This document shows, in pieces, positions 45,613 through 62,770 of a DNA stretch of 64,000 nt. Positions within the stretch are counted from its first letter, which is position 1. Each line of letters opens with the position of its first letter. The notes under the pieces are model-generated. The model searched no databases. It worked only from the letters and a program-made list of their open reading frames with translations, and had not been told where the DNA came from. Where the stretch lies: positions 186,001 through 250,000 of the forward strand of contig NZ_SBIW01000007.1 of the NCBI RefSeq assembly GCF_004054195.1. Direction: 5' to 3'. The stretch comes from Mucilaginibacter gilvus. GTDB lineage: Bacteria; Bacteroidota; Bacteroidia; Sphingobacteriales; Sphingobacteriaceae. The translations under genes were made by a program, and so were the position numbers.

Positions 45613-48087
45613 ATGATAAAGAACTATTTTAAAATCGCCTTAAGGGGGTTCCGCCGGCACAAGCTGTTTACCTTTATCAACATTGTGGGCTTATCCATAG
45701 GCATCAGCGCCGCGCTGGTGATATACCTCATTGTGCATTTCGATTTTACGTTTGATAAGTTCCATAAAGATAGCGACCGCGTTTACCGTGTAACTACTGA
45801 TTATTCGTTCGCGGGTGAAGTTGGGCACAACGGTGGGGTAACCATGGCCCTGGCGCCGGCATTGAGCACCGAAGCAACCGGTATCGACCAGGTAGCACCA
45901 TTCTACATATACGGTAACGTGAATGTGCTGGCGCCCAATGGCTCATCGGTAGGTAACAAGTTAAAAAAGCAAAGCGGGATAATTTTCGCCGAAGGCCATT
46001 ACTTTAATATTTTTGAATATAATTGGGTAGTGGGCAATAAAAAAACCGCCCTTAAAGATCCCAACACCGTTGTGCTTACTACAAAGCAAGCGAAACTGTA
46101 TTTCCCTAAGCTGGAGTATGCCGATATGCTGGGCAAGCAACTCATCTATGATGATTCGCTTAAAACCACTGTTACCGGTATTGTAGAACCTTTTAAAGAA
46201 CGTTCGGACTTTATGGCACATGATTTTATATCCTACATCACCGGCACTACCGACCATTACGTCAAAGACAATTTTGAGGTAACGCAGTGGGGAAATACCA
46301 ACTCTGCCTCGCAGTTATTCATCAAACTCGCGCCAACTGCTTCAGCTGGTAAATTAGAGAAGCAATTGAATGTAATGCTGAACAAGCATAACCCGCCAAC
46401 GCCCGAAAATAAGGGCAATACCCAGGGTTTATCGCTCCAGCCTATCGGCGATCTGCATTTCGATCAAGTGTATGGCGGCTTTGATGGTGTGCGTACGGCC
46501 AGCAAAACAACGCTTTACGGTTTATTGGTTATAGCGGCTTTCTTGCTGATGTTAGGCTGCATCAACTTTATTAACCTTACCACAGCGCAGGCATCGCAAC
46601 GCGCCAAAGAAATAGGCATCCGCAAAACAATGGGGAGCAGGCGGGGGCAGTTGATCATGCAGTTTTTAAGCGAAACGTTTTTGATAACCCTTTTAGCGGT
46701 TATTATTTCTGTGGCTATAGCGCCGGTAATATTAAAATTGTTTGCCGACTTTGTTCCAGAGGGGATCGCCATAAATATCCTCGCTCAGCCCGATCTAGTT
46801 GTGTTTTTAATATTACTGACCTTACTCGTAAGCGGCTTGTCGGGCTTTTATCCGGCCCTGGTTTTATCTGGCTATAAACCGGTTACGGTGCTTAAGAACC
46901 AGTCGGCAGGTAATAGCAGTAAATCGCGTAACGCCTGGCTGCGTAAAGGGTTAACGGTTACCCAGTTTGTGATAGCGCAGTTCTTTATCATGGCTACCTT
47001 ATTGGTGAGCAAACAGATCTACTACGCGTTGCATAAGGACCTTGGTTTTAAGAAAGACGCTATTGTAAATATCAGCACACCGTATAAAAGCATAAATACC
47101 GATAAACAACAGGTGTTTATGAATAGGATCCGCGCCATAGCGCAGATAGAACTAATGAGCGTGGGTGGTGCGCCGCCATCGTCGGGCAATACAAACTCTA
47201 CCACCGTAACCTACAAGGACGGCAAAAAAGAGGTAAAAATAGACCTGCAGCAAAAATTTGCCGATGAAAATTACCTCAACGTTTACCAGATAAAATTATT
47301 AGCCGGGCGTAACCTGCGCTCAACCGATACGGCGGGGGCGGGTAATATCCTCATTAATAATACCTACGCCAAAGTTTTAGGTTTCCGTAACCCAAATGAT
47401 GCCATTGGTAAGCAGTTGGATTATAACGACAAGCAAAAAACCATTGTAGGTGTAACGGCCGATTTTTACCAGAAATCGCTTCATTCACCTATAAAACCAC
47501 TTGCTATCCTGCAGCCCGGGAACAGGAAATGGAATAACCGCACTTTCCATATCGCCCTAAAACCGCAAACTGCCGGCGGAAACGAATGGAAAACTGCCAT
47601 AGCCGGGTTTGAAAAGATATGGAAGGAGATTTATCCCGACGAAGATTTTGAATACACTTTTTACGACGAGAACATTGCCAAGTTTTACACCGCAGAGCAA
47701 CACACTTCGCAATTGCTTACCTGGGCAACAGGCCTTTCTATATTTATCAGCTGCCTTGGTTTATTAGGTTTGGCTATTTATACCACCAGCCAGCGCACTA
47801 AGGAAATCGGCGTACGCAAGGTGTTGGGCGCTTCGGTAGCGCAGATTGTTACGCTGCTATCAACCGAATTGATCTGGCTCATAGTACTGGCTTTTGTAGT
47901 AGTAACACCAATTGCCTACTACGCCATGCAAAAATGGATGGAGAACTTTGCAGACCGCACTGCCATCAGCTGGTGGATCTTCGCGCTAAGCGGTGGAGGG
48001 ATGCTTACAGCAGCATTGTTTACGCTAAGCTTCCAAACGGTAAAAGCAGCAGTTGCGAACCCTGTGAGGAGTTTGCGAAGTGAGTAG
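45613..48087 (+). CDS. FtsX-like/MacB-type ABC permease 10
   Basis: This is the longest permease, at 824 residues. With permease 12 it forms subgroup C, recognised by IGDLHFDQVYGGFDG (LSDMHFDTRFGN in permease 12), by CINFINLTTAQA in place of the NLSTARS seen elsewhere, and by YTFYDENIAKFYTAEQ in the second ectodomain. Coupling motifs are EIGIRKTMGS (about 332) and EIGVRKVLGA (about 730). Helix 1 has GLSIGISAALVIYLIVHF. The first ectodomain is larger than in other subgroups and includes NVLAPNGSSVGNKLKKQ. It is driven by promoter D; permease 11 follows after 167 bp without activator sites. Confidence 0.92.
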   Translation: MIKNYFKIALRGFRRHKLFTFINIVGLSIGISAALVIYLIVHFDFTFDKFHKDSDRVYRVTTDYSFAGEVGHNGGVTMALAPALSTEATGIDQVAPFYIYGNVNVLAPNGSSVGNKLKKQSGIIFAEGHYFNIFEYNWVVGNKKTALKDPNTVVLTTKQAKLYFPKLEYADMLGKQLIYDDSLKTTVTGIVEPFKERSDFMAHDFISYITGTTDHYVKDNFEVTQWGNTNSASQLFIKLAPTASAGKLEKQLNVMLNKHNPPTPENKGNTQGLSLQPIGDLHFDQVYGGFDGVRTASKTTLYGLLVIAAFLLMLGCINFINLTTAQASQRAKEIGIRKTMGSRRGQLIMQFLSETFLITLLAVIISVAIAPVILKLFADFVPEGIAINILAQPDLVVFLILLTLLVSGLSGFYPALVLSGYKPVTVLKNQSAGNSSKSRNAWLRKGLTVTQFVIAQFFIMATLLVSKQIYYALHKDLGFKKDAIVNISTPYKSINTDKQQVFMNRIRAIAQIELMSVGGAPPSSGNTNSTTVTYKDGKKEVKIDLQQKFADENYLNVYQIKLLAGRNLRSTDTAGAGNILINNTYAKVLGFRNPNDAIGKQLDYNDKQKTIVGVTADFYQKSLHSPIKPLAILQPGNRKWNNRTFHIALKPQTAGGNEWKTAIAGFEKIWKEIYPDEDFEYTFYDENIAKFYTAEQHTSQLLTWATGLSIFISCLGLLGLAIYTTSQRTKEIGVRKVLGASVAQIVTLLSTELIWLIVLAFVVVTPIAYYAMQKWMENFADRTAISWWIFALSGGGMLTAALFTLSFQTVKAAVANPVRSLRSE

Positions 48088-48176
48088 CTGTTAGTTGATG
48101 GTTCATAGTTCATGGTTTATAGCAGGCGTAAAATAATTGCTGGGCTACCATGAACTATCATCAATGAACAATCAGC
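48088..48176. repeat. TTGATGGTTCATAG inverted repeat after permease 10
   Basis: The left arm GTTGATGGTTCATAGTTCATGG pairs imperfectly with CCATGAACTATCATCAATGAAC across about 35 nt, in the same family as the elements after permeases 7, 11 and 12. Confidence 0.55.
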
Positions 48177-48254
48177 CAATAAAAGTTAACGAATGTTAAA
48201 GGTTTAGGATTCGAAAGCTATAGTGCTGATATTGTAGGCAATTACAAAAAGCCT

Positions 48255-50621
48255 ATGCTGAAGAACTACTTTAAAATTACCTGGCGCAGTATTGCCAATA
48301 ATAAAATATCCTCGCTTATTAATATCGGCGGGCTCTCCGTGGGTATAGCAGTGAGTTTTATGTTGTTGCTGTATGTATACAACCAATACAGTTTTGATAA
48401 ATTCCACAATAATAGCGACCGGCTGTACCAGGTTTTTAAAAACCAACCATCAAACGGAGAAATAAGAACTAAAGCATTTACGCAGCAGCGGCTTGCCGGC
48501 GTGCTAAAAAAAGATTTCCCGGAAGTAGAGAATGTAGCACGCATCAACGAATCTAAAGAAGCACTCATCACCTTTAACGACAAAGGTATTAAAGTGAACA
48601 CCGTAGCATCTGACGCGGCGCTGTTTGACTTATTCAACTTTCAGTTGGTTTGGGGCGACAGGCGCACCGCACTTAGCGACCCAACCGGCATCGTAATTTC
48701 AGAATCAACCGCATTGGCCGTATTCGGCAACAGGAACCCGGTGGGGGAGATGATCCAATACGACAACCAATTCCCCATGAAAATAAGCGCGGTTATCAAA
48801 GATAACCCGCAAAATTCCAGTTTTACTTTTAAAGCCATCATACCATGGCAGGCTTTTTTAAACGAGATGCCCTGGCTAAAAGATGAAGGCTGGGATAATT
48901 ACTCCTATTTCACGTATGTGCGTTTAAGGCCCGGCACATCTTTGGAGGCGGTAAATGCCAAAATAAAAAACCTCATAGGGCAGCATTTCCCACAGGATAA
49001 GGCGGTGAAGCTATTTATGTTCCCGTTTACCAGGCTACATTTGTATGGCGAGTTTAAAAATGGTGTGAACACCGGCGGCAGCATCGAATATGTGCGGTTG
49101 TTTTTATTCCTTGCCATTGGCATATTGCTCATAGCTTGTATCAATTTCATGAATCTGTCAACTGCCAGGTCGGAAAGAAGGGCGCGCGAAGTTGGCATTC
49201 GCAAAGCCATTGGCGCAAGGCGCGGTTCGCTCATAAAACAATTCATGAGCGAGTCGCTACTGATGGCTTTTGCAGCTTTCCTGCTTTCCCTCATGCTCAT
49301 TATGGTATTACTTCCTGTGTTCAGGAATATCGTTAATATCAATTTAAGCCTGCCCTATGCCAACCCATGGGCCTGGTTAATGGCTTTGGCAGTTACAGTG
49401 TTTACAGGGTTGGTTGCAGGTAGTTATCCGGCACTTTTCCTTTCGTCGTTTAACCCGGTTAAGGTGTTGAAAGGGCAAATGATAAGCACACAAAGCAGCA
49501 TCCGCCCAAGGCAGGTGCTGGTGGTTATGCAGTTCACCTTTTCAACCTGCCTCATCATCTTCAGCATTTTTGTATACCGGCAAATAGGCTTTATTAAAAA
49601 CCGCCCGGTTGGTTACAACCGCGAAGGGATGATAGAGATCGCCTCTGATGGCAGGATGTACGACCAGTTCGATCTTTTCCGGCGCGATGCGCTGGCATCA
49701 GGCGCCATTACCGATGCTGCATTGATATCCGAACCTATAACCGGCGTTACCGGCGCCACCTGGAATAACACCTGGCCGGGACAGCTCCCCGGCGAGCGTA
49801 GTATCTCTATAGATTGTGTTGCGGCTACCTACCATTTTATTGATACTTACCAACTGCAATTAACCAGGGGGCGTGATTTTGCTGCCGGCCGCCCCTCAGA
49901 TTCTACCGCTGTTATACTTAACGAATCGGCAGTGAAACTGATGCGCTTAAAAGAACCCGTTGGGCAACAAATAACGTGGATGAACAGCAAGCGCACAATT
50001 ATAGGCGTAGTTAAGAATTTTGTATTGGCATCGCCTTACGAACCGGTGAAGCCAGTTATTATCGGGTTTTCGAAAGACTGGGCCACCAGTATAGGCTTGC
50101 GGCTCAACCCCAATACATCAATATCGCATAACCTGATAGTTTTAGAAAGCATCTACAAAAAATATAACCCTACGTACCCTTTCGAGTACAAATTTACCGA
50201 TGAAAGTTTTAGCGCCAAATTTCGTAACGAGAAATTACTCGGCACTATGGCAGTTTCATTTACCTGTTTAGCTATAATGTTGTCTGCGCTCGGGTTGTTT
50301 GGGCTTGCCTCATTCTCTGCCGAACGCAGGCGTAAGGAGATCAGCATCCGCAAAGTTTTGGGCGCAGGTACGGGCGCGCTATGGTTAAAACTTTCACAGG
50401 AGTTTTTGGTGTTGGTGGTACTGTCGTTCGTTATCGGCTCGCTTATTAGTTGGTACCATATCAGCAGGTGGTTGTCGCAATATACGTATCACACATCTAT
50501 CAGCATTTGGGTTTTTGTGGCTACGCTGGCTTTAAGCCTTGCCACTTGCCTTATTGCGGTAAGCTGGCAGGCTGTGAAGGCGGCCCTGGTAAACCCGGTG
50601 AAGAATTTGCGGAGTGAGTAA
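48255..50621 (+). CDS. FtsX-like/MacB-type ABC permease 11
   Basis: This 788-residue permease belongs to subgroup A (HLYGEFKNGVNTGGSIEYVRLF; ASPYEPVKPVIIGF in the second ectodomain). Coupling motifs are EVGIRKAIGA (about 311) and EISIRKVLGA (about 694), the second with Ser in place of the usual Gly. The loop after the second motif is also unusual (GTGALWLKLSQEFL). It is the last gene of the first part of the array; the next gene, recR, begins 126 bp downstream after a hairpin repeat. It probably reads from promoter D with permease 10. Confidence 0.92.
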   Translation: MLKNYFKITWRSIANNKISSLINIGGLSVGIAVSFMLLLYVYNQYSFDKFHNNSDRLYQVFKNQPSNGEIRTKAFTQQRLAGVLKKDFPEVENVARINESKEALITFNDKGIKVNTVASDAALFDLFNFQLVWGDRRTALSDPTGIVISESTALAVFGNRNPVGEMIQYDNQFPMKISAVIKDNPQNSSFTFKAIIPWQAFLNEMPWLKDEGWDNYSYFTYVRLRPGTSLEAVNAKIKNLIGQHFPQDKAVKLFMFPFTRLHLYGEFKNGVNTGGSIEYVRLFLFLAIGILLIACINFMNLSTARSERRAREVGIRKAIGARRGSLIKQFMSESLLMAFAAFLLSLMLIMVLLPVFRNIVNINLSLPYANPWAWLMALAVTVFTGLVAGSYPALFLSSFNPVKVLKGQMISTQSSIRPRQVLVVMQFTFSTCLIIFSIFVYRQIGFIKNRPVGYNREGMIEIASDGRMYDQFDLFRRDALASGAITDAALISEPITGVTGATWNNTWPGQLPGERSISIDCVAATYHFIDTYQLQLTRGRDFAAGRPSDSTAVILNESAVKLMRLKEPVGQQITWMNSKRTIIGVVKNFVLASPYEPVKPVIIGFSKDWATSIGLRLNPNTSISHNLIVLESIYKKYNPTYPFEYKFTDESFSAKFRNEKLLGTMAVSFTCLAIMLSALGLFGLASFSAERRRKEISIRKVLGAGTGALWLKLSQEFLVLVVLSFVIGSLISWYHISRWLSQYTYHTSISIWVFVATLALSLATCLIAVSWQAVKAALVNPVKNLRSE

Positions 50622-54213: not shown

Positions 54214-54661
54214 CTGGTAATAATTAAATTGAATAAAAAAGCAATCTTGAATTAAATGCGGTCCATCTTTAATTCAATAACTACCTATGAAAAATGTGTG
54301 GATAGATGTATGAGCAATTTTACAGAAATTCCTTTACATTTTAAGGGCATCCCGGCCTTGGTGAGCTTATATCTGGTGTTTTACAAAAGTGTTTTATTGT
54401 GTTTTTTTATTTCGACGTAAAATATATACATTGTTCATAATAAACTATTTATAAATATCATCTAAAGTATAGGGGTGTTCCAAAGTGTTTCACAAAAAAC
54501 TGTAAAATACTGATAATCAATATGGTCTTAAAATAAGTGTTCCACATTTAAAAGTAGCACACCTAAGCCGACAGCTCAATAAAATTTAAACGCATTTGCT
54601 TTTGTAAAAACATCATTCCGCTTGCTTTTAGTGAAAAGTATTTCCATATTTGCCTTAACAA
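54214..54661. other. Divergent intergenic region between the Kir channel gene and the trp leader
   Basis: This AT-rich gap has no gene. It contains the inverted repeat TTGAATTAAA-N11-TTTAATTCAA (54247-54277). A trp promoter must lie in its right part, but I could not identify a convincing -33/-7 pair. Confidence 0.4.
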
Positions 54662-54715
54662 ATGAAAACAATAGCATTAAACAACAATTGGTGGTGGCTT
54701 AACGAAAACTCGTAA
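54662..54715 (+). CDS. trpL: trp operon leader peptide (three tandem Trp codons)
   Basis: A 17-codon open frame encodes MKTIALNNNWWWLNENS and a TAA, with three consecutive TGG codons at 54689-54697. It lies 75 bp upstream of trpD and directly before a stem pair that can switch between antiterminator and terminator. Trp is rare, so three in a row in a short leader just ahead of Trp-synthesis genes is strong evidence for ribosome-mediated attenuation. When charged tRNA-Trp is scarce, the ribosome should stall on these codons. Confidence 0.9.
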   Translation: MKTIALNNNWWWLNENS

Positions 54716-54780
54716 GGCAGCCTCATTTTTTGTTTTTTACAGATATACAGAAGGGTTGCCGCAAGGTAGCCCTTTTTTTA
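54716..54780 (+). promoter_or_regulatory. trp attenuator: antiterminator/terminator switch
   Basis: GGCAGCC (54716-54722) can pair with GGTTGCC (54754-54760) as antiterminator. Alternatively, AAGGGTTGCC (54751-54760) pairs with GGTAGCCCTT (54764-54773) around a GCAA loop, followed by a T run to 54779, forming an intrinsic terminator 10 bp before trpD. The leader stop codon abuts the antiterminator strand, so a ribosome that completes the leader would mask it and let the terminator form. Confidence 0.88.
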
Positions 54781-54789
54781 TGCCCTAAC

Positions 54790-55779
54790 ATGAAACAGAT
54801 ACTTAACCATCTTTTTGAACACAAAACCTTTAGCCGTGAGCAATCGAAAGAAATTTTGAAGAACATCGCACTGGGTAAATACAATAATTCGCAAATGGCC
54901 GCCTTTATGACTGCCTATTGTATGCGCAGCATCACAGTGAACGAACTGGAAGGTTTCCGCGATGCGATGCTAGAACTTTGCCTGCCTATCGACCTGGAAA
55001 CCGGTGAACTTATCGACCTTTGCGGCACCGGCGGCGATGGCAAGGATACATTTAATATCTCTACCCTTGCGTCATTCGTGGTAGCGGGGGCAGGTTATAA
55101 GGTGGCCAAACACGGCAACTACGGCGTTTCTTCGGGCTGCGGTTCATCCAACGTAATGGAGCATTTGGGCTATGTGTTCACCAACAATACCGATGCCCTC
55201 AAACGCAGCATTGATAAAGCAAATATCTGCTTCTTGCACGCGCCGCTTTTCCATCCGGCTATGAAAACTGTGGCGCCTATCCGCAGGGAATTGGGCGTGA
55301 AAACCTTTTTTAATATGCTTGGCCCATTGGTAAACCCCGCAAAACCGGGTAACCAGTTGGTAGGTGTATTTAACCTGGAACTGGCGAGGGTTTATGCTTA
55401 CCTGTACCAAAAATCGGGTATTAAATATACCATCCTAAACGCCTTAGACGGCTACGATGAGATTTCGCTCACCTGCGATTTTAAAACTTTCTCCGGCGAA
55501 GGCGAAAAGATGAATACCATAGAAAGCCTCGGCTTTGCCAAACTGAACGAGAACGAAATAACCGGCGGGCATACCGTTGGCGATTCGGCAGACATATTTA
55601 TGAAGGTGCTTAATGACGAAGCTACAAAAGCGCAAGCCAACGTAGTGTTGTCAAACGCGGCAATGGCCATTAAAACCATTTCGCCCGGCAAAACATTTGC
55701 AGATAGTTTTTACGAGGCAGAGGAATCGCTCACCAGCAAAAAAGCGCTGCGAAGCTTTAAAACTTTGATTGCGAGCTAA
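54790..55779 (+). CDS. trpD: Anthranilate phosphoribosyltransferase TrpD
   Basis: This cytosolic enzyme transfers phosphoribose from PRPP to anthranilate, the second step from chorismate to tryptophan. It has 329 residues from the ATG at 54790 (MKQILNHLFEHKTFSREQ). The frame is open upstream through the attenuator, so that extension is rejected. Signature motifs are DLCGTGGDGKDTFNIST (PRPP-binding, about 78) and KHGNYGVSSGCGSSNVMEHLG (about 105), then RRELGVKTFFNMLGPLVNP (about 165). The product is consumed by TrpF, encoded 1 bp downstream. There is no trpE or trpG upstream: the neighbour is the divergent Kir channel gene. Confidence 0.97.
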   Translation: MKQILNHLFEHKTFSREQSKEILKNIALGKYNNSQMAAFMTAYCMRSITVNELEGFRDAMLELCLPIDLETGELIDLCGTGGDGKDTFNISTLASFVVAGAGYKVAKHGNYGVSSGCGSSNVMEHLGYVFTNNTDALKRSIDKANICFLHAPLFHPAMKTVAPIRRELGVKTFFNMLGPLVNPAKPGNQLVGVFNLELARVYAYLYQKSGIKYTILNALDGYDEISLTCDFKTFSGEGEKMNTIESLGFAKLNENEITGGHTVGDSADIFMKVLNDEATKAQANVVLSNAAMAIKTISPGKTFADSFYEAEESLTSKKALRSFKTLIAS

Positions 55780-55780
55780 T

Positions 55781-56410
55781 ATGAAGATAAAGATTTGTGG
55801 TTTAAAACACCCGGATAATATCGAAGCCGTAGCGGCACTATCGCCCGATTATATGGGCTTTATCTGTTATAGCAGGTCGCCGCGCTTTATTGGGGAGCTT
55901 GACGAAGATATTTTGGCAACCCTGCCAGATAATATCCTTAAAACTGGAGTGTTTGTAAATGCCTCGGTAGAGCGCATCAACAAAACGATGAATAAATATG
56001 GTTTCGAGGCCATTCAGTTGCATGGTGCCGAAACCCCGGATAACTGCGCCATGTTCCGCACCAAAGTGACCGTTATCAAAGCTTTTGGTGTAAATGAGGA
56101 TTTTGATTTTAGCCGATTGGAAAATTACGCTAACAAAGTAGATTATTTCCTGTTCGATACCAAAACGGTAGCACATGGCGGCTCGGGCAAAACCTTTAAA
56201 TGGGAAGTGCTGAATAAATACACGGGCGATGTGCCTTTCTTTTTATCGGGCGGGTTAAGCCTGGAGAATTTGGCTGAAGTGGGTAGCATCAAACACCCTA
56301 TGCTGTATGGTGTTGATATGAACAGCAGGTTCGAATCGGCCCCGGCTTTAAAAGATGTAGATAAGCTTAAAGAAGCATTTAATATTATAAAAACATTCAA
56401 TAACAAATGA
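55781..56410 (+). CDS. trpF: Phosphoribosylanthranilate isomerase TrpF
   Basis: This 209-residue TIM-barrel enzyme converts phosphoribosylanthranilate to CdRP in tryptophan synthesis. The start is the ATG at 55781 ([17 protein letters not shown]), one base after the trpD stop. The catalytic Cys in KICGLK, QLHGAE (about 85), [15 protein letters not shown] with the usual phosphate-loop glycines (about 125-140), and the C-terminal GVDMNSRFE are the expected motifs. Length is normal. The trpC gene that usually lies between trpD and trpF in related operons is absent here. The stop overlaps the trpB start by 4 bp (ATGA), indicating translational coupling. Confidence 0.96.
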
Positions 56411-57588
56411 AGTACGGAGTTAACGAACAGGGCTATTACGGAGATTTTGGCGGGGCGTATATCCCCGAAATGCTTTACCCTAACGTAGAGGAACTGCGCC
56501 AGGAATACGTGAAGATAATGAACGACCCGAGCTTTATAGCCGAGTTTGACCAGCTGCTGCGCGATTATGTGGGCCGCCCGTCGCCTTTATACCATGCCAA
56601 ACGCTATTCGGAAAAATACGGAGCGAACATTTTCTTCAAACGGGAAGACCTGAACCATACTGGTTCGCATAAAATAAACAATGCCATCGGGCAGATACTT
56701 TTAGCTGAACGCCTAGGCAAAAAACGCATCATCGCTGAAACTGGGGCCGGGCAGCATGGCGTGGCTACGGCTACTGTTTGTGCGCTTAAAGGCATCGAGT
56801 GTATAGTATACATGGGCGAAATAGACATGGCACGCCAGGCACCCAACGTATCTCGCATGAAGATGCTGGGTGCCAGGGTAATACCGGCAACATCAGGCAG
56901 TAAAACCCTTAAAGATGCCACCAACGAGGCCATGCGCGACTGGATAGGCAACCCGGTTGATACCCATTATATCATCGGCTCGGTAGTTGGCCCGTATCCT
57001 TACCCGGATATGGTGGCCAAATTCCAATCCATCATTTCCCTCGAAGCAAAAAAACAACTGCTGGAGCAAACCGGCAATGAGTTACCACAATATGTAATGG
57101 CTTGTGTAGGGGGCGGCAGCAATGCCATGGGTATGTTTTACCATTTTTTGGACGATGAGGATGTGAAATTAGTAGCGGTTGAAGCAGCAGGCAAAGGTGT
57201 AGAGAGCGGCCACTCGGCAGCAACCACTTTTCTTGGCCGCGAGGGCGTTTTACACGGCAGCCGTACCATACTGATGCAAACAGCCGATGGGCAGGTGGAA
57301 GAACCGTATTCCATATCTGCAGGGTTGGATTATCCCGGCATAGGTCCGCAGCATGCACATTTGTATAAAGTAAACCGTGCCAAATACGTAAGCATTACCG
57401 ATGATGAGGCGCTGCAGGCGGGCTTGCTGTGCTCGCAAATGGAAGGCATTATCCCTGCCATAGAAACCGCGCACGCGCTGGCCTATTTGGAGAAAATGGT
57501 ATTTGATAAAGGCGATAATGTAGTGATCTGTCTGTCGGGCAGGGGAGATAAGGATCTGGATACTTATATTAAGTATTTCGGGTACTAG
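56407..57588 (+). CDS. trpB: Tryptophan synthase beta subunit TrpB
   Basis: This 393-residue PLP enzyme condenses indole with serine to give tryptophan. The PLP lysine is in [13 protein letters not shown] (about 85), the phosphate-binding glycine loop is [10 protein letters not shown] (about 228), and substrate-binding [12 protein letters not shown] is at about 107. The start [21 protein letters not shown] and the end [16 protein letters not shown] are complete. It normally works with TrpA, but no trpA follows: the next feature is the inverted repeat and promoter E of the permease array. TrpA must be encoded elsewhere. Confidence 0.98.
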
Positions 57589-57839: not shown

Positions 57840-60266
57840 ATGTTAAAAAATTACTTTAAAATAGCCTGGCGCAACATTCTCCGCCATAAAGGTTATTCCA
57901 TCATAAATATTTCTGGTTTAAGCGTGGGCATCGCAGCCTGTCTGCTCATATTTGTTATCCTGCAGTTCGAGTTGAGCTTTAACACCGGTTTTACGAACTA
58001 TAAAAGTCTGTACCATGTGGCTACTAAGCAAATAGGCGAGGACGGTACCACTTATAATCCCGGCGTATCCGTACCGGCTCTCGATGCCTTGCGGATCGAC
58101 TTTCCGCAGGTAAAGTTTGCTGCCTTAAACTCCAGCTATGGCAGCCAATTAACTGTTCCGGGTAACGACCCAAACAACGCCTTGAACGATAAAAAATTCA
58201 GCGAAGACGTTGGCGTGTTTTTTATGGAACCGCAGTTCTTCGATATCTTCCATTCTGATTGGCTGGCAGGAGATAAAAGTGCTTTAGACCAGCCAAACAT
58301 GGTGGTGATAGCCCAAAGCACGGCCACTAAATACTTCGGCAACTGGAAACAGGCCATGGGTAAAACCCTGAAAATGGATAACGTTTTAACCCTGCGTGTT
58401 GCCGGCATTATTGGCGACGCGCCTGATAACAGCGATTTCCCGCTGAAGGTGATGGTATCCTACACTACCTGGAAAGAGCATCCTAAAGATTATAATTACT
58501 CCCATGAATGGGGCTCACTAAGCAGCAATCACCAGATATTTGCCGAGCTGCCGCAAAATATGACGGCCGCCAATATGGATAAGCAGTTGGTACGCTTCAC
58601 CGCAAAATTCGCAAAGGATAAAACTAAGGTAACCCGTGCCCATTTTTTACAGCCATTAAGTGATATGCACTTTGATACCCGTTTCGGTAACACCATTGGC
58701 GACCACAGCACCAGCATGGCAACCTTGCGCATATTGGGGCTTATTGCCGTGTTGATCATCGTTATGGCGTCCATCAACTTTATTAACTTGTCTACCGCGC
58801 AATCGGTAAGCCGGTCAAAAGAGGTAGGCATCCGTAAGGTATTGGGTAGCACCAGGAAACAACTGATCTCGCAGGTACTTGGCGAAACCACGCTTATTGT
58901 GGTATTTTCGGTTGCAATTGCAGTCGCAATAGCAGAACTTGCTCTGCCATACCTCAAAAATATCGCCACCGTGCCGGATAATATCCGCTTGTTTAACGCT
59001 GGAACAATGATGTTTTTGGCATTGACAACCATCGCGGTTATTATACTTTCCGGCATCTATCCCGCACTCGTCGTATCGGGCTTTAAGCCAATACTGGCCA
59101 TCAAAAACAAAATCACAGCAGCTTCCGTTGGCGGCATCCCACTGCGCAGGGCATTGGTTGTCGGCCAATTCTTTATCGCGCAATTATTGATCATCGGCAC
59201 TTTGGTTGCGGTAAAACAAATGAACTATGTAAACGATGCCGACCTCGGATTCAACAAAAGCGCTGTACTAATACTACCCGGTTATACCGACAGTATCAGC
59301 CTGGGCAAAATGCAAACCTTTAAACAGCAACTATTGCAAAATCCGCAGGTAAAATCGGTGAGCTTTACTTCTGATGCGCCATCATCTGATAACAACTGGG
59401 GATCCAACTTTTATTATAACAACGATATGAAAGGCGCTACCTTCGGCGTTTTCATGAAGTTTGCCGATGCGGATTACTTTAAAACCTTTGGTTTTAAATT
59501 TGCCGCAGGCGGAGGTTTCGACCTAAGTGATACTACCCGCCAGGTAGTTGTTAACGAAACATTGGTACACAAACTGGGCGTAAAAAACGCAGGGGACGCT
59601 ATTGGCAAAACGTTTAAGTTGGGCGGCGCTAAAAAGTGGGCAAATATTATTGGAGTGGTTAAGGATTTTAAAACCAATTCTTTGCGCGATGCTGTTAGAC
59701 CCATTGTTATTTTAACGCAAAAGGAATATGAAGGGCAGGCGGCCGTAAAAATTCAGACAACAAGCCTGTCGAAAACAACAGCTGCCGTTAAGGCCCTGTG
59801 GGAGAAAACCTATCCCGAGTATGCTTACAGTGGCTATTTCCTTGATGAAAAAATCGCTAAATTTTATGAGCAGGAGAACAAGCTTGCGCTGGTTTACAAG
59901 ATCTTTGCCGGTATTGCCATCTTTATTTCCTGCCTTGGCTTGTACGGCCTGGTATCGTACATGGCTGTGCAACGCACCAAGGAAGTTGGTGTAAGAAAGG
60001 TATTGGGCGCGTCTGTAGCCAATATTGTTTTCATGTTCTCCAAAGAGTTTTTATTGCTGATAGGGATCGCCTTTTTAATTGCCATGCCAACCGCTTGGTA
60101 TCTGATGTCGCAATGGCTGCAGAATTTTGCTTACCGCATCCCATTAACCGCAGGCGTATTTTTGCTGGCGATAGTAGGATCTATGGGGATAGCATGGCTT
60201 ACCGTGAGCTACAAAGCCTTAAAAGCCGCGCTGGTAAACCCGGTAAAGAGCTTGAAGTCGGAATAG
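57840..60266 (+). CDS. FtsX-like/MacB-type ABC permease 12
   Basis: This 808-residue permease belongs to subgroup C with permease 10 (LSDMHFDTRFGNTIGDHST; INFINLSTAQS; YFLDEKIAKFYEQENKLA). Coupling motifs are EVGIRKVLGS (about 327) and EVGVRKVLGA (about 714). Helix 6 carries FISCLGLYGLVSYMA, with Tyr where paralogs have Phe. The first half closes with GIYPALVVSGFKPILAIKN, close to the GFYPALVLSGYKPVTVLKN of permease 10. Promoter E drives it, and permease 13 follows after 107 bp with leader repeats but no activator sites. Confidence 0.92.
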   Translation: MLKNYFKIAWRNILRHKGYSIINISGLSVGIAACLLIFVILQFELSFNTGFTNYKSLYHVATKQIGEDGTTYNPGVSVPALDALRIDFPQVKFAALNSSYGSQLTVPGNDPNNALNDKKFSEDVGVFFMEPQFFDIFHSDWLAGDKSALDQPNMVVIAQSTATKYFGNWKQAMGKTLKMDNVLTLRVAGIIGDAPDNSDFPLKVMVSYTTWKEHPKDYNYSHEWGSLSSNHQIFAELPQNMTAANMDKQLVRFTAKFAKDKTKVTRAHFLQPLSDMHFDTRFGNTIGDHSTSMATLRILGLIAVLIIVMASINFINLSTAQSVSRSKEVGIRKVLGSTRKQLISQVLGETTLIVVFSVAIAVAIAELALPYLKNIATVPDNIRLFNAGTMMFLALTTIAVIILSGIYPALVVSGFKPILAIKNKITAASVGGIPLRRALVVGQFFIAQLLIIGTLVAVKQMNYVNDADLGFNKSAVLILPGYTDSISLGKMQTFKQQLLQNPQVKSVSFTSDAPSSDNNWGSNFYYNNDMKGATFGVFMKFADADYFKTFGFKFAAGGGFDLSDTTRQVVVNETLVHKLGVKNAGDAIGKTFKLGGAKKWANIIGVVKDFKTNSLRDAVRPIVILTQKEYEGQAAVKIQTTSLSKTTAAVKALWEKTYPEYAYSGYFLDEKIAKFYEQENKLALVYKIFAGIAIFISCLGLYGLVSYMAVQRTKEVGVRKVLGASVANIVFMFSKEFLLLIGIAFLIAMPTAWYLMSQWLQNFAYRIPLTAGVFLLAIVGSMGIAWLTVSYKALKAALVNPVKSLKSE

Positions 60267-60373
60267 TGTTCATAGTTCATGGTTCAAAGTAAAAGGACTA
60301 CAGGAATTACCATGAACTGTCATCCATCAACTAAATAAATCTGCGTAATCACAAAATATAATCTGTGTAATCA
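60267..60373. repeat. TTCATAGTTCATGG hairpin plus ATCTGTGTAATC repeats before permease 13
   Basis: TGTTCATAGTTCATGGTTC pairs imperfectly with CCATGAACTGTCATCCATC. Then ATCTGCGTAATC and ATCTGTGTAATC follow in direct orientation, the last one ending 1 bp before the ATG at 60374. Both intergenic repeat families meet in this one gap. Confidence 0.6.
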
Positions 60374-62770
60374 ATGTATAAAAACTATTTTAAGGTCGCC
60401 TGGCGCAATCTGTGGAAGAATAAAGTTTCCTCTGTTATCAATATCGTTGGGCTTGCCGTGGGTATGGCTGCCTGCATTGTGATACTGCTATTTGTATCGT
60501 ACGAGAAAAGCTTCGACAGTTTTCATGGCGAAAACATTGTAAGGCTGAATGAGGTACAAAAGTGGCCCGGATTAGCCGCACCTCAAAAGGTAGCCTTATC
60601 TATGTTCCCGATGGCACCGGCTATCAAGGCAGAGTTTCCTGAAGTGAAGGATTACACCCGTATAAAATGGGACGATAAATATCAGTTCACCTACAACGAG
60701 AAAAGAATATTTGTACCCGAGGTTTTTGCCGTCGACCCTTCTTTTTTTAATATATTTAATTTTAAGGTGATAAAAGGCGATGCACTTGCGGCGATAACCA
60801 AACCAAACAGCATTGCCATTACCGAGGAAACTGCCCAAAAACTTTTTGGTAAGGAGGATCCCATCGGCAAAATAATAAACCATTACGGTGGCGATACGCT
60901 TAAGTTTACCGTAACAGCCGTGATGGCTAATGTGCCAAAAAACTCCCAGCTACAATTTGATGCCTTATACTCTTTGCCGGGCATCCATCAAAAATGGATG
61001 GATAACTGGGGCGGTAACTGGTTAAATACCTACTTTAAAATGTCGCCCGGAGCCGATTTGAAATCCTTTGAAGCTAAGATGCCGGGTTTCTTAAAAAAAC
61101 ACCTCAATGGCGACGGCTGGAAATATTATGAACTATTTTACCTCCCGCTGAAAGACATACATGCAGGTTCTACAGACATCGGGCTGGATTACCTCAACTT
61201 TCAAAAGTTCGACCAGAAATCGACCAACCTATTCGCCATCATAGCTATTATTGTGCTCGTTATCGCCTGCGTAAACTTCATGAACCTTTCTACAGCACGC
61301 TCTGCTGATAGGGCGAAAGAGGTGGGCATACGTAAATCTATAGGTGCAAACAGGCCCCAATTGGCTTTGCAGTTCCTTGGCGAAACCATTTTGTTATCCT
61401 TACTGGCGCTGGTGTTTGCTATTATATTGGTAGAGCTTGCTTTACCCTACGTAAATAACCTCAGCCTTCGCGGCATTTCGCTGCCTGTTTTCAGCCAGCC
61501 ATTATTCCTGCCGCTCATTTTGGTGGGGACTATTTTGGTGGGCTTCATTTCGGGTATTTATCCTGCTTTGTTCCTTTCCTCCTTTAAGCCGGTTAAGGTT
61601 TTAAAGGGATCGGTAGAAACCGGCAAGAACAAAGGGGCTTTGCGCAACGTGTTGGTGGTTGGCCAGTTTACCAGTGCTGTTTTCCTGATGATAGCCACCG
61701 TATTTGTGGTGAAGCAGCTTAAATTTATGCAGGCTAAAGACCCCGGCTTTACCCGCGAGCAAATGGTTACCATTCCGCTGGATAGAATTTCGGGCAAAGG
61801 CTACCAGCTGTTTAAACAGCAACTATTAAACAACACACTTGTTGCCGGTGTAACTGCTTCGCAAGACCAACTTGGCAGCCATTTAGATCAAAATGGTGTT
61901 ACGTTTCAGTATAAAGATTCTCCAAAGAAGGATTTGGCGGCCACGCAGCTTATTGTTGATAACGATTATCTCAACGTTTATAACATCAAATTGTCGCAAG
62001 GCAAAAACTTTTCTACCGAAAAATCTCAAAACGGTCGTGAATACATTGTGAATGAAGCCATGGCCGACGAACTCTTAAAAGATCATCCCGGGGCTACACG
62101 CGCTTCGTTGATAGGGCAGCGCTTCGGCTTCGATTCGCTTGGCGTAATTACCGGTGTGTCCAAAAACTTTAATTTTAATTCGATGCATTATAAGGTAGAA
62201 AACCTATTCCTCGTAAATCAAAGTGAATGGGGATTCCGCAAGGTTTCGGTAAAAATAAATGCGGGCAAATCAAAAGAGGCCATTGAGTTCATCAAAGCTA
62301 CCTGGAAGCAAATTAACCCCGACCACCCGTTTGAATACCAGTTTTTGGACGACCATTTTGCGGAGGTTTACCGAGCCGATAACCAGGTGAGCAAAATTGT
62401 GGGGATACTGGCCGGTTTGGCCATTTTGATATCCTGCCTTGGCCTATTTGGCCTCGCATCTTTCTCTGCCGAAAAACGGGTGAAAGAAATAGGGGTGCGC
62501 AAAGTACTGGGCGCATCGGTGAAAAATATTGTAATGTTATTATCCGGCCATTTTATAAAATTAGTGATGATATCAAACCTTATAGCCTGGCCGCTAGCAT
62601 GGTACGCTATGAATTTGTGGTTGAAAGATTTTGCCTACCATATCAGCATCACCTGGGGCACGTTTCTATTCGTAGCCTTGCTATCGGTAATCATTGCCTT
62701 GCTAACCATCAGTTTTCAATCAGTAAAAGCAGCCATAGCCAACCCGGTGAAGAGTTTGCGGAGCGAATAA
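60374..62770 (+). CDS. FtsX-like/MacB-type ABC permease 13
   Basis: This 798-residue permease is not close to any other in the window. The first ectodomain lacks the usual YDxFHxxxDRIYR pattern after helix 1 and instead reads EKSFDSFHGENIVRLNE. It ends LKDIHAGSTDIGLDYLNFQKF. Coupling motifs are EVGIRKSIGA (about 315) and EIGVRKVLGA (about 705). The first half ends ISGIYPALFLSSFKPVKVLKG, and YQFLDDHFAEVYRADNQVS precedes helix 6. The complete frame and canonical tail NPVKSLRSE indicate a functional gene, likely co-transcribed with permease 12. Confidence 0.92.
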   Translation: MYKNYFKVAWRNLWKNKVSSVINIVGLAVGMAACIVILLFVSYEKSFDSFHGENIVRLNEVQKWPGLAAPQKVALSMFPMAPAIKAEFPEVKDYTRIKWDDKYQFTYNEKRIFVPEVFAVDPSFFNIFNFKVIKGDALAAITKPNSIAITEETAQKLFGKEDPIGKIINHYGGDTLKFTVTAVMANVPKNSQLQFDALYSLPGIHQKWMDNWGGNWLNTYFKMSPGADLKSFEAKMPGFLKKHLNGDGWKYYELFYLPLKDIHAGSTDIGLDYLNFQKFDQKSTNLFAIIAIIVLVIACVNFMNLSTARSADRAKEVGIRKSIGANRPQLALQFLGETILLSLLALVFAIILVELALPYVNNLSLRGISLPVFSQPLFLPLILVGTILVGFISGIYPALFLSSFKPVKVLKGSVETGKNKGALRNVLVVGQFTSAVFLMIATVFVVKQLKFMQAKDPGFTREQMVTIPLDRISGKGYQLFKQQLLNNTLVAGVTASQDQLGSHLDQNGVTFQYKDSPKKDLAATQLIVDNDYLNVYNIKLSQGKNFSTEKSQNGREYIVNEAMADELLKDHPGATRASLIGQRFGFDSLGVITGVSKNFNFNSMHYKVENLFLVNQSEWGFRKVSVKINAGKSKEAIEFIKATWKQINPDHPFEYQFLDDHFAEVYRADNQVSKIVGILAGLAILISCLGLFGLASFSAEKRVKEIGVRKVLGASVKNIVMLLSGHFIKLVMISNLIAWPLAWYAMNLWLKDFAYHISITWGTFLFVALLSVIIALLTISFQSVKAAIANPVKSLRSE

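Follow-up and report, generated by a model that had tools for sequence, protein, structure and literature searches.

The trpD, trpF and trpB genes of the soil bacterium Mucilaginibacter gilvus lie together in the window analysed here (the whole stretch of 64,000 nucleotides, from contig NZ_SBIW01000007.1), and the short region in front of them raises the question of how this part of the tryptophan pathway is controlled. A sequence-only reading had proposed a ribosome-mediated Trp attenuator, assembled from a leader peptide with three tandem Trp codons, an antiterminator strand touching the leader stop codon, and a terminator with a GCAA loop and a T run. All of these parts can be read directly in the window (Table 1), and the proposal withstands comparison with related genomes, in which leader, codon-to-segment spacing and helices are conserved. 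On this comparative evidence, the locus is by far best explained as a transcription attenuator that acts in cis and is ribosome-mediated, as in the E. coli trp operon, with a probability of roughly 0.93.

Table 1. Features of the trpD leader region, the genes behind it and the corresponding trpE leader. Positions are those of the window unless a locus is named.
Feature	Position	Strand	Details
Predicted primary-sigma promoter	54622..54652	+	TTG (-33 region) 54622-54624; CATATTTG (-7 box) 54645-54652
Leader ORF MKTIALNNNWWWLNENS	54662..54715	+	17 codons; coordinates include the stop TAA; direct reading and genus comparison
Leader start and stop codons	ATG at 54662; TAA at 54713-54715	+	direct reading
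Sensor, three tandem Trp codons (TGG)	54689..54697	+	direct reading and genus comparison
Segment 1:2 protector hairpin	54698..54717	+	segment 1, CTTAACGA 54698-54705, with TCGTAAGG 54710-54717
Segment 2, antiterminator 5' strand GGCAGCCTC	54716..54724	+	abuts the leader stop codon
Segment 3 GGGTTGCC	54753..54760	+	common to antiterminator and terminator
Intrinsic terminator	54749..54779	+	stem 54749-54760 / 54765-54776, GCAA loop, T run
trpD, anthranilate phosphoribosyltransferase	54790..55779	+	TIGR01245 above cut-off; heads the controlled unit
trpF, phosphoribosylanthranilate isomerase	55781..56410	+	best match NF002298, below cut-off, and gene order
trpB, tryptophan synthase beta	56407..57588	+	TIGR00263 above cut-off
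trpE-G-C leader MKKTLNNIYWWHQTKIWQPDSF and terminator	L124 2258-2400 (same genome, contig C15)		before trpE

The core of the terminator, GGGTTGCC-GCAA-GGTAGCCC, occupies 54753-54772 and runs directly into seven T residues at 54773-54779. The leader is the only short ATG-initiated ORF with a WWW run in the window, against a mean of 0.05 and a maximum of 1 in 100 first-order Markov resamplings. Searches for trpD in 149 genomes gave a match in 86 of 90 from the same genus (M. gilvus included), and 84 of these 86 loci were read, leaving out G052 and G058, in which trpD matched only partly. Conservation of the leader in relatives, which the sequence-only reading had put forward as a check, was found throughout: an in-frame WW or WWW leader precedes trpD in 84/84 Mucilaginibacter loci, with three tandem Trp codons in 79 and two in 5, starting with ATG in 82 and GTG in 2, and a terminator-like hairpin stands ahead of trpD in all 84. 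A chance origin of the leader is, on this sequence comparison, untenable, because it is kept in every same-genus locus read. The terminator and trpD are separated by at least 60 nt in 51 of the 84 loci (for example, L002, L013 and L037), and 32 of these 51 wide gaps contain a CCCC..GGGG element that is absent from the window.

Beyond the genus, a Trp leader lies ahead of the trpD unit in 49 of 51 other loci, nearly all from Sphingobacteriaceae, and the genera concerned also include Pedobacter, Pelobium, Pararcticibacter, Parapedobacter and Sphingobacterium. The two misses are L223, in which no leader was found in 1,271 nt upstream of trpD, and L204, in which none was found in the 204 nt of upstream sequence covered. 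Six loci of other families had no leader within 500 nt before trpD, apart from one chance ORF in L088. Outside the family, 21 genomes have a strong trpD match (E < 1e-90), and in 19 of these trpE closely precedes trpD, so that any leader would there be expected ahead of trpE. In the remaining two, G094 and G101, the trpE and trpD matches fall on different contigs, near contig ends.

Two of the three predicted helices are stronger in the window than in shuffled sequences. Folding energies are -18.2 kcal/mol (z -5.65) for the terminator piece and -15.6 kcal/mol (z -3.71) for the 2:3 piece, with 0/200 shuffles as good in either case, and the fold of the entire leader beats 200/200 shuffles (z -3.43). 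The 1:2 piece (-12.3 kcal/mol, z -1.43, 18/200 shuffles as good) is not significant alone. Pairing was then counted across the genus, the 84 trpD leaders being collapsed to 59 distinct sequences, or 472 cells per helix; these sequences are related and the counts are therefore not independent. Segments 3 and 4 can pair in 471 of the 472 cells, 2 and 3 in 449, and 1 and 2 in 402, 56 of the 70 unpaired 1:2 cells coming from a single A-A position. A control in which the partners were slid by one or two positions, covering the 2:3 and 1:2 helices, gave fractions of 0.28-0.61 and 0.18-0.61, respectively. By predicted pairing, the antiterminator (2:3) and terminator (3:4) helices exclude each other, the property that marks the attenuator class.

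Segment 3, bound to pair twice, is almost invariant. Covariation within the genus is, at the level of sequence, weaker than conservation, since most pair changes affect one side only, through G-U, and few affect both sides. Covariation is stronger in the trpE leaders of a sister group in the same family, g55, which together with g56 we take, from trpE identity, as Sphingobacterium and Pedobacter. One column of the g55 trpE leaders changes in all three strands, reading G-C-G in 16/30 and A-T-A in 11/30; of the remaining three, one is mismatched and two were not placed. The 2:3 helix passes the shuffle test at the 5% level in 82/84 Mucilaginibacter trpD leaders and 27/30 g55 trpE leaders, and more weakly elsewhere: in 28/49 other trpD leaders, 36/70 Mucilaginibacter trpE leaders and 0/4 Cytophagales trpE leaders.

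Segment 2 keeps a nearly fixed distance from the Trp codons: of the 84 Mucilaginibacter leaders, 83 have it starting 17 nt past the last of these codons and one 18 nt past it, whereas the stop codon occupies two positions, 9 nt behind the Trp run (47 leaders) or 15 nt behind it (37 leaders). The codons at +5 and +6 are kept as TCG (82/84) and TAA (78/84) even though the ORF stops earlier in 47 leaders; this persistence past the end of the ORF is put down to the demands of the RNA structure. Segment 2 is assumed to stay free while a ribosome is stalled at the Trp codons, and to be wholly or mostly covered once the ribosome stands at the stop codon, on the basis of the 17-nt ruler and the reach of a ribosome at a stop codon, taken from a passage of PMC4833913, with the same reach assumed at the stall. 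With the footprint at the stop extended to the Trp stall in this way, the geometry is that of a ribosome-mediated trp attenuator.

From parts, spacing, conservation and alternative pairings, all of them read from the sequence and its comparison, we infer ribosome stalling, termination, a Trp response, ribosome-polymerase coupling and the exact transcription start. RNA polymerase would begin a few bases ahead of the leader AUG, with a ribosome loading almost at the 5' end of the transcript. When charged tRNA-Trp is scarce, this ribosome would stall at the Trp codons and cover segment 1 without reaching segment 2, leaving 2 to pair with 3; the 2:3 helix would block the terminator, and trpD-F-B would be transcribed. 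When Trp is plentiful, the ribosome would proceed to the stop codon and cover segment 2, so that 3:4 could form and transcription would halt at the T run. Without any translation, 1:2 and 3:4 would both be expected to form, again halting transcription. The scheme assumes ribosome-polymerase coupling in Bacteroidota. Leaders of this type work only if the ribosome closely follows the polymerase, and a Trp response in Mucilaginibacter would for that reason also bear on transcription-translation coupling in a phylum described, in a passage of PMC9723704, as lacking Shine-Dalgarno sequences, and would do so on RNAs with a predicted 5' untranslated region of just a few bases.

Each of the 84 Mucilaginibacter trpD leaders has a promoter-like NAnnTTTG box upstream, as CATATTTG in 80, TATATTTG in 3 and CATCTTTG in 1, with TTG 19-21 nt ahead of it in 84/84 and the leader ATG 7-17 nt past it in 79/84. 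Against the full consensus, TAnnTTTG, the box in the window has C at the first base; the first base deviates in 81 of the 84 boxes and only three fit completely. The corresponding box of trpE leaders is TAAATTTG in 55/70. If the box lies at -12 to -5, where a passage on Flavobacterium psychrophilum places it (PMC9723704), +1 is predicted at about 54657, which would give a 5' untranslated region of about 5 nt in the window and of about 3-13 nt across leaders. A region of about 5 nt would leave no room for a Shine-Dalgarno site. According to a passage of PMC7366714, 5' untranslated regions under 10 nt are a small minority (about 3.7%) in Bacteroides thetaiotaomicron.

The peptide itself, NNNWWWLNE, might matter beyond the time spent on its Trp codons, as a Trp-sensing arrest peptide or one acting in trans, and of the other explanations this one fares best, improbable as we consider it. 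The residues around the Trp run are well kept: Asn stands at -3, -2 and -1 in 80, 80 and 79 of the 84 leaders, and the run is followed by Leu (81/84), Asn (83/84) and then Glu (68) or Asp (11). The Asn codons before the run look like a case of peptide-level conservation, being written AAC or AAT in a ratio of 141:98, whereas codon +2 is AAC in 83/84 and AAA in one, never AAT, a restriction attributable to the 1:2 helix (Fisher P 4e-16 for this contrast, which, the sequences being related, is not a true probability). NN also precedes WWW, commonly as NNTWWW, in most of the RF01692 leaders read (the best 30 of 42; see below), and a Trp leader peptide acting in trans has been described in Sinorhizobium meliloti (a passage of PMC7298713). 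However, folding of 72 distinct sequences (leaders with three Trp codons) predicts that the Asn codons pair through their A bases with the U-rich linker in 70, and their conservation may thus be partly a matter of RNA structure; this duplex itself reaches a z of only -0.84 against dinucleotide shuffles. The C-terminal parts of trpE leaders, moreover, vary widely, and the complete attenuator anatomy makes a second role for the peptide unnecessary.

It is very improbable that the hairpin is a Trp-independent terminator, or the end of a processed small RNA, that finishes a constitutive short transcript over which the ORF is incidental. The terminator is indeed strong and ends 14 nt before trpD by the boundary used in the locus scan, but Trp codons, start codon and 17-nt ruler are conserved, and Trp-rich leaders also stand before trpE in the genus and in four whole operons from Cytophagales.

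T-box (tRNA-binding) and TRAP-type sensors also control trp genes through alternative terminators and antiterminators, but a sensor of this kind in place of a ribosome-read one is hardly credible here, given the conserved in-frame Trp codons, which argue for reading by the ribosome, and given that the window contains no Rfam match above threshold and that the 13 matches obtained at E<=10 in 54500-54900 do not include a T-box. These 13 all lie below their cut-offs; the runner-up to Bacteroid-trp, ctRNA_p42d, falls on the terminator hairpin with 28 bits against 50. The E. coli Trp_leader family, RF00513, gave no match in the window at gathering, nor at E<=10 in 54500-54900, and so both a T-box and an E. 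coli Trp_leader reading are without Rfam support. In its anatomy, the attenuator proposed here nevertheless resembles the E. coli type in its tandem Trp codons, its 1:2, 2:3 and 3:4 helices and its terminator; it differs in a predicted 5' untranslated region of only a few nucleotides, in its place before trpD, and in belonging to a split pathway with a second leader.

The nearest catalogued element is Rfam RF01692, Bacteroid-trp, listed in a table row of PMC2864571 (Table 1 there) as the Bacteroidete tryptophan peptide leader RNA. This family is characterized by a Trp leader peptide that precedes trp genes of Bacteroidota. The window leader shares this trait and matches the model over its full length at 48.2 bits, just below the gathering cut-off of 49; the alignment contains gaps and has 10 aligned positions marked as non-standard pairs. 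The trpD leader of a Sphingobacterium metagenome-assembled genome (MAG; L218) passes the cut-off with 51.6 bits, and the Mucilaginibacter and Pedobacter trpD leaders seen besides the window score from 33.7 to 48.0 bits (L003 of Mucilaginibacter 40.0, Pedobacter L197 41.2 and L184 33.7). Judged by sequence, the window leader is a near-threshold relative of RF01692 rather than a certified member and, being so close to a leader already catalogued in Bacteroidota, not a new kind of element; it is therefore less surprising than the sequence-only reading had implied.

A search of 395 genomes across the phylum located RF01692 at E <= 0.001 in 42, of which 37 lie above the cut-off, and in 1 of 14 control genomes, under filters strict enough to lose weak matches. 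Among the rows listed, it occurs in 3/6 Mucilaginibacter genomes, all below the cut-off, and in 0/5 genomes of other members of the family. Within the M. gilvus genome, this site alone matches at E <= 10, a level at which 7/14 control genomes also match. The best 30 of the 42 loci, most of which we take as Flavobacteriaceae, resemble the window in the leader peptide, for the most part with an Asn pair ahead of WWW, and in their place upstream of trp genes. They differ in the gene that follows, which is trpE in 27 and trpB then trpE in 3, as opposed to trpD. The matched model, furthermore, stops at segment 3 and omits the terminator that the window possesses. What the present locus adds is the extension of a catalogued leader, little described in the passages cited here, to trpD in the Sphingobacteriaceae genera read, with a complete four-segment anatomy.

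That the leader stands before trpD rather than trpE, as the sequence-only reading had stressed, proved half of the story: it does precede trpD-F-B, but trpE-G-C carries a Trp leader and terminator of its own (Table 1). The notion that trpE escapes attenuation was accordingly rejected, and by its anatomy the trpE unit would be attenuator-controlled too. In M. gilvus, contig C15 carries trpE (best match TIGR00564, below cut-off) grouped with trpG and trpC, and contig C25 carries a solitary trpA; trpE and trpD are more than one megabase apart in all 14 single-contig Mucilaginibacter genomes. A WW leader was found at 70/70 Mucilaginibacter trpE loci read (from 90 genomes searched, the other 20 being mostly fragmented assemblies and including two without a match). 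WW or WWW stands at 30/30 trpE loci in g55, read from 30 of 40 genomes, and W-x-W at 30/30 in g56, read from 30 of 31 genomes, with the leader of L344 lying 347 nt upstream. No RF01692 match at E <= 10 was obtained with six trpE leaders, five from the family and one from Cytophagales; one of them, L300, matches RF00513 at chance level (23.2 bits, E 2.7, cut-off 41).

Between segment 2 and the terminator, outside the proposed pairings, many trpE leaders (for example, L128, L278 and L320) contain an ATCAA..AAACC element, present in 37/70 from Mucilaginibacter, 29/30 from g55 and 25/30 from g56, and absent from 4/4 Cytophagales trpE leaders and from 133/133 trpD leaders.

Only trpA is without a Trp leader among the trp units of the M. 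gilvus genome: none was found at its lone locus (L126 1001-2244), which has a promoter-like box, TATTTTTG. Tryptophan synthase alpha thus appears to lie outside the control of its beta partner. In six of 24 named Mucilaginibacter loci (L158-L162 and L181), trpA was not found in the approximately 2 kb behind trpB; L172 ends too early to show it.

Four Cytophagales loci (two Algoriphagus, one Dyadobacter and one Cyclobacteriaceae MAG) keep trpE-G-D-C-F-B-A together, with one WWW leader ahead of trpE. Since the trpD leaders score in RF01692 and the trpE leaders tested give no match, sequence comparison suggests that it was the trpD half that took the ancestral leader, the catalogued one, along. 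A wider history can be offered tentatively, as a possibility to which we give somewhat less than even odds: a trp operon may have split, in Sphingobacteriaceae, into trpE-G-C and trpD-F-B-A, with the ancestral Bacteroid-trp leader remaining in front of trpD, while the trpE half carries a second, uncatalogued class, distinguished by two tandem Trp codons in Mucilaginibacter and the conserved ATCAA..AAACC element. Early and later steps of the pathway could then respond at different thresholds, the first step through one sensor and the later steps through the other. The mechanism itself is ordinary and, as far as anatomy and comparison go, well supported; of modest interest, and worth a specialist's time, is the presence of two half-operons with an attenuator each. 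A sensor on each half would make a tidy natural case of a regulon surviving the break-up of its operon.

A comparable split is found in S. meliloti, whose trpLE(G) attenuator is described in a passage of PMC7298713. As in Mucilaginibacter, the trp genes are divided, and the leader AUG lies at the very 5' end of the RNA, compared with a predicted few nucleotides from it here. Of the three trp operons of S. meliloti, only trpE(G) is attenuated according to that passage, the trpDC mRNA being reached in trans by a small RNA, whereas in M. gilvus the trpE and trpD units each have a leader. Within the phylum, passages on F. psychrophilum, from which leader-peptide attenuation has been proposed, report clues for leader peptides before amino-acid operons, TAnnTTTG promoters and Bacteroid-trp upstream of the trp operon (PMC9723704, PMC6414381); these passages are silent on Sphingobacteriaceae, on a leader borne by trpD and on two Trp leaders per genome. 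No description of a trpD-borne or doubled Trp leader was found in the literature searched, whose coverage mostly excludes subscription journals and is not proof of absence.

Several other elements lie close to the trp genes. A dispersed repeat of about 95 nt, at 54465-54580 of the window, has 19 matches in the genome (two of them overlapping), one of which is just upstream of trpA. With that many matches, and none in the M. glaciei locus L158, a role as an operator shared by trpD and trpA is unsupported. Similar words, TGTTCCA/GTGTTTCAC, can be made out by eye in the M. pankratovii locus L181, which gives no blastn match. In Pedobacter borealis (L197 2257-2413), a Flavo-1 RNA match of 49.5 bits, above the cut-off of 42, lies upstream of the trpD leader. 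The trp genes of the window are flanked on both sides by four large ORFs (45613-50621 and 57840-62770), which resemble duplicated ABC-transporter permeases.
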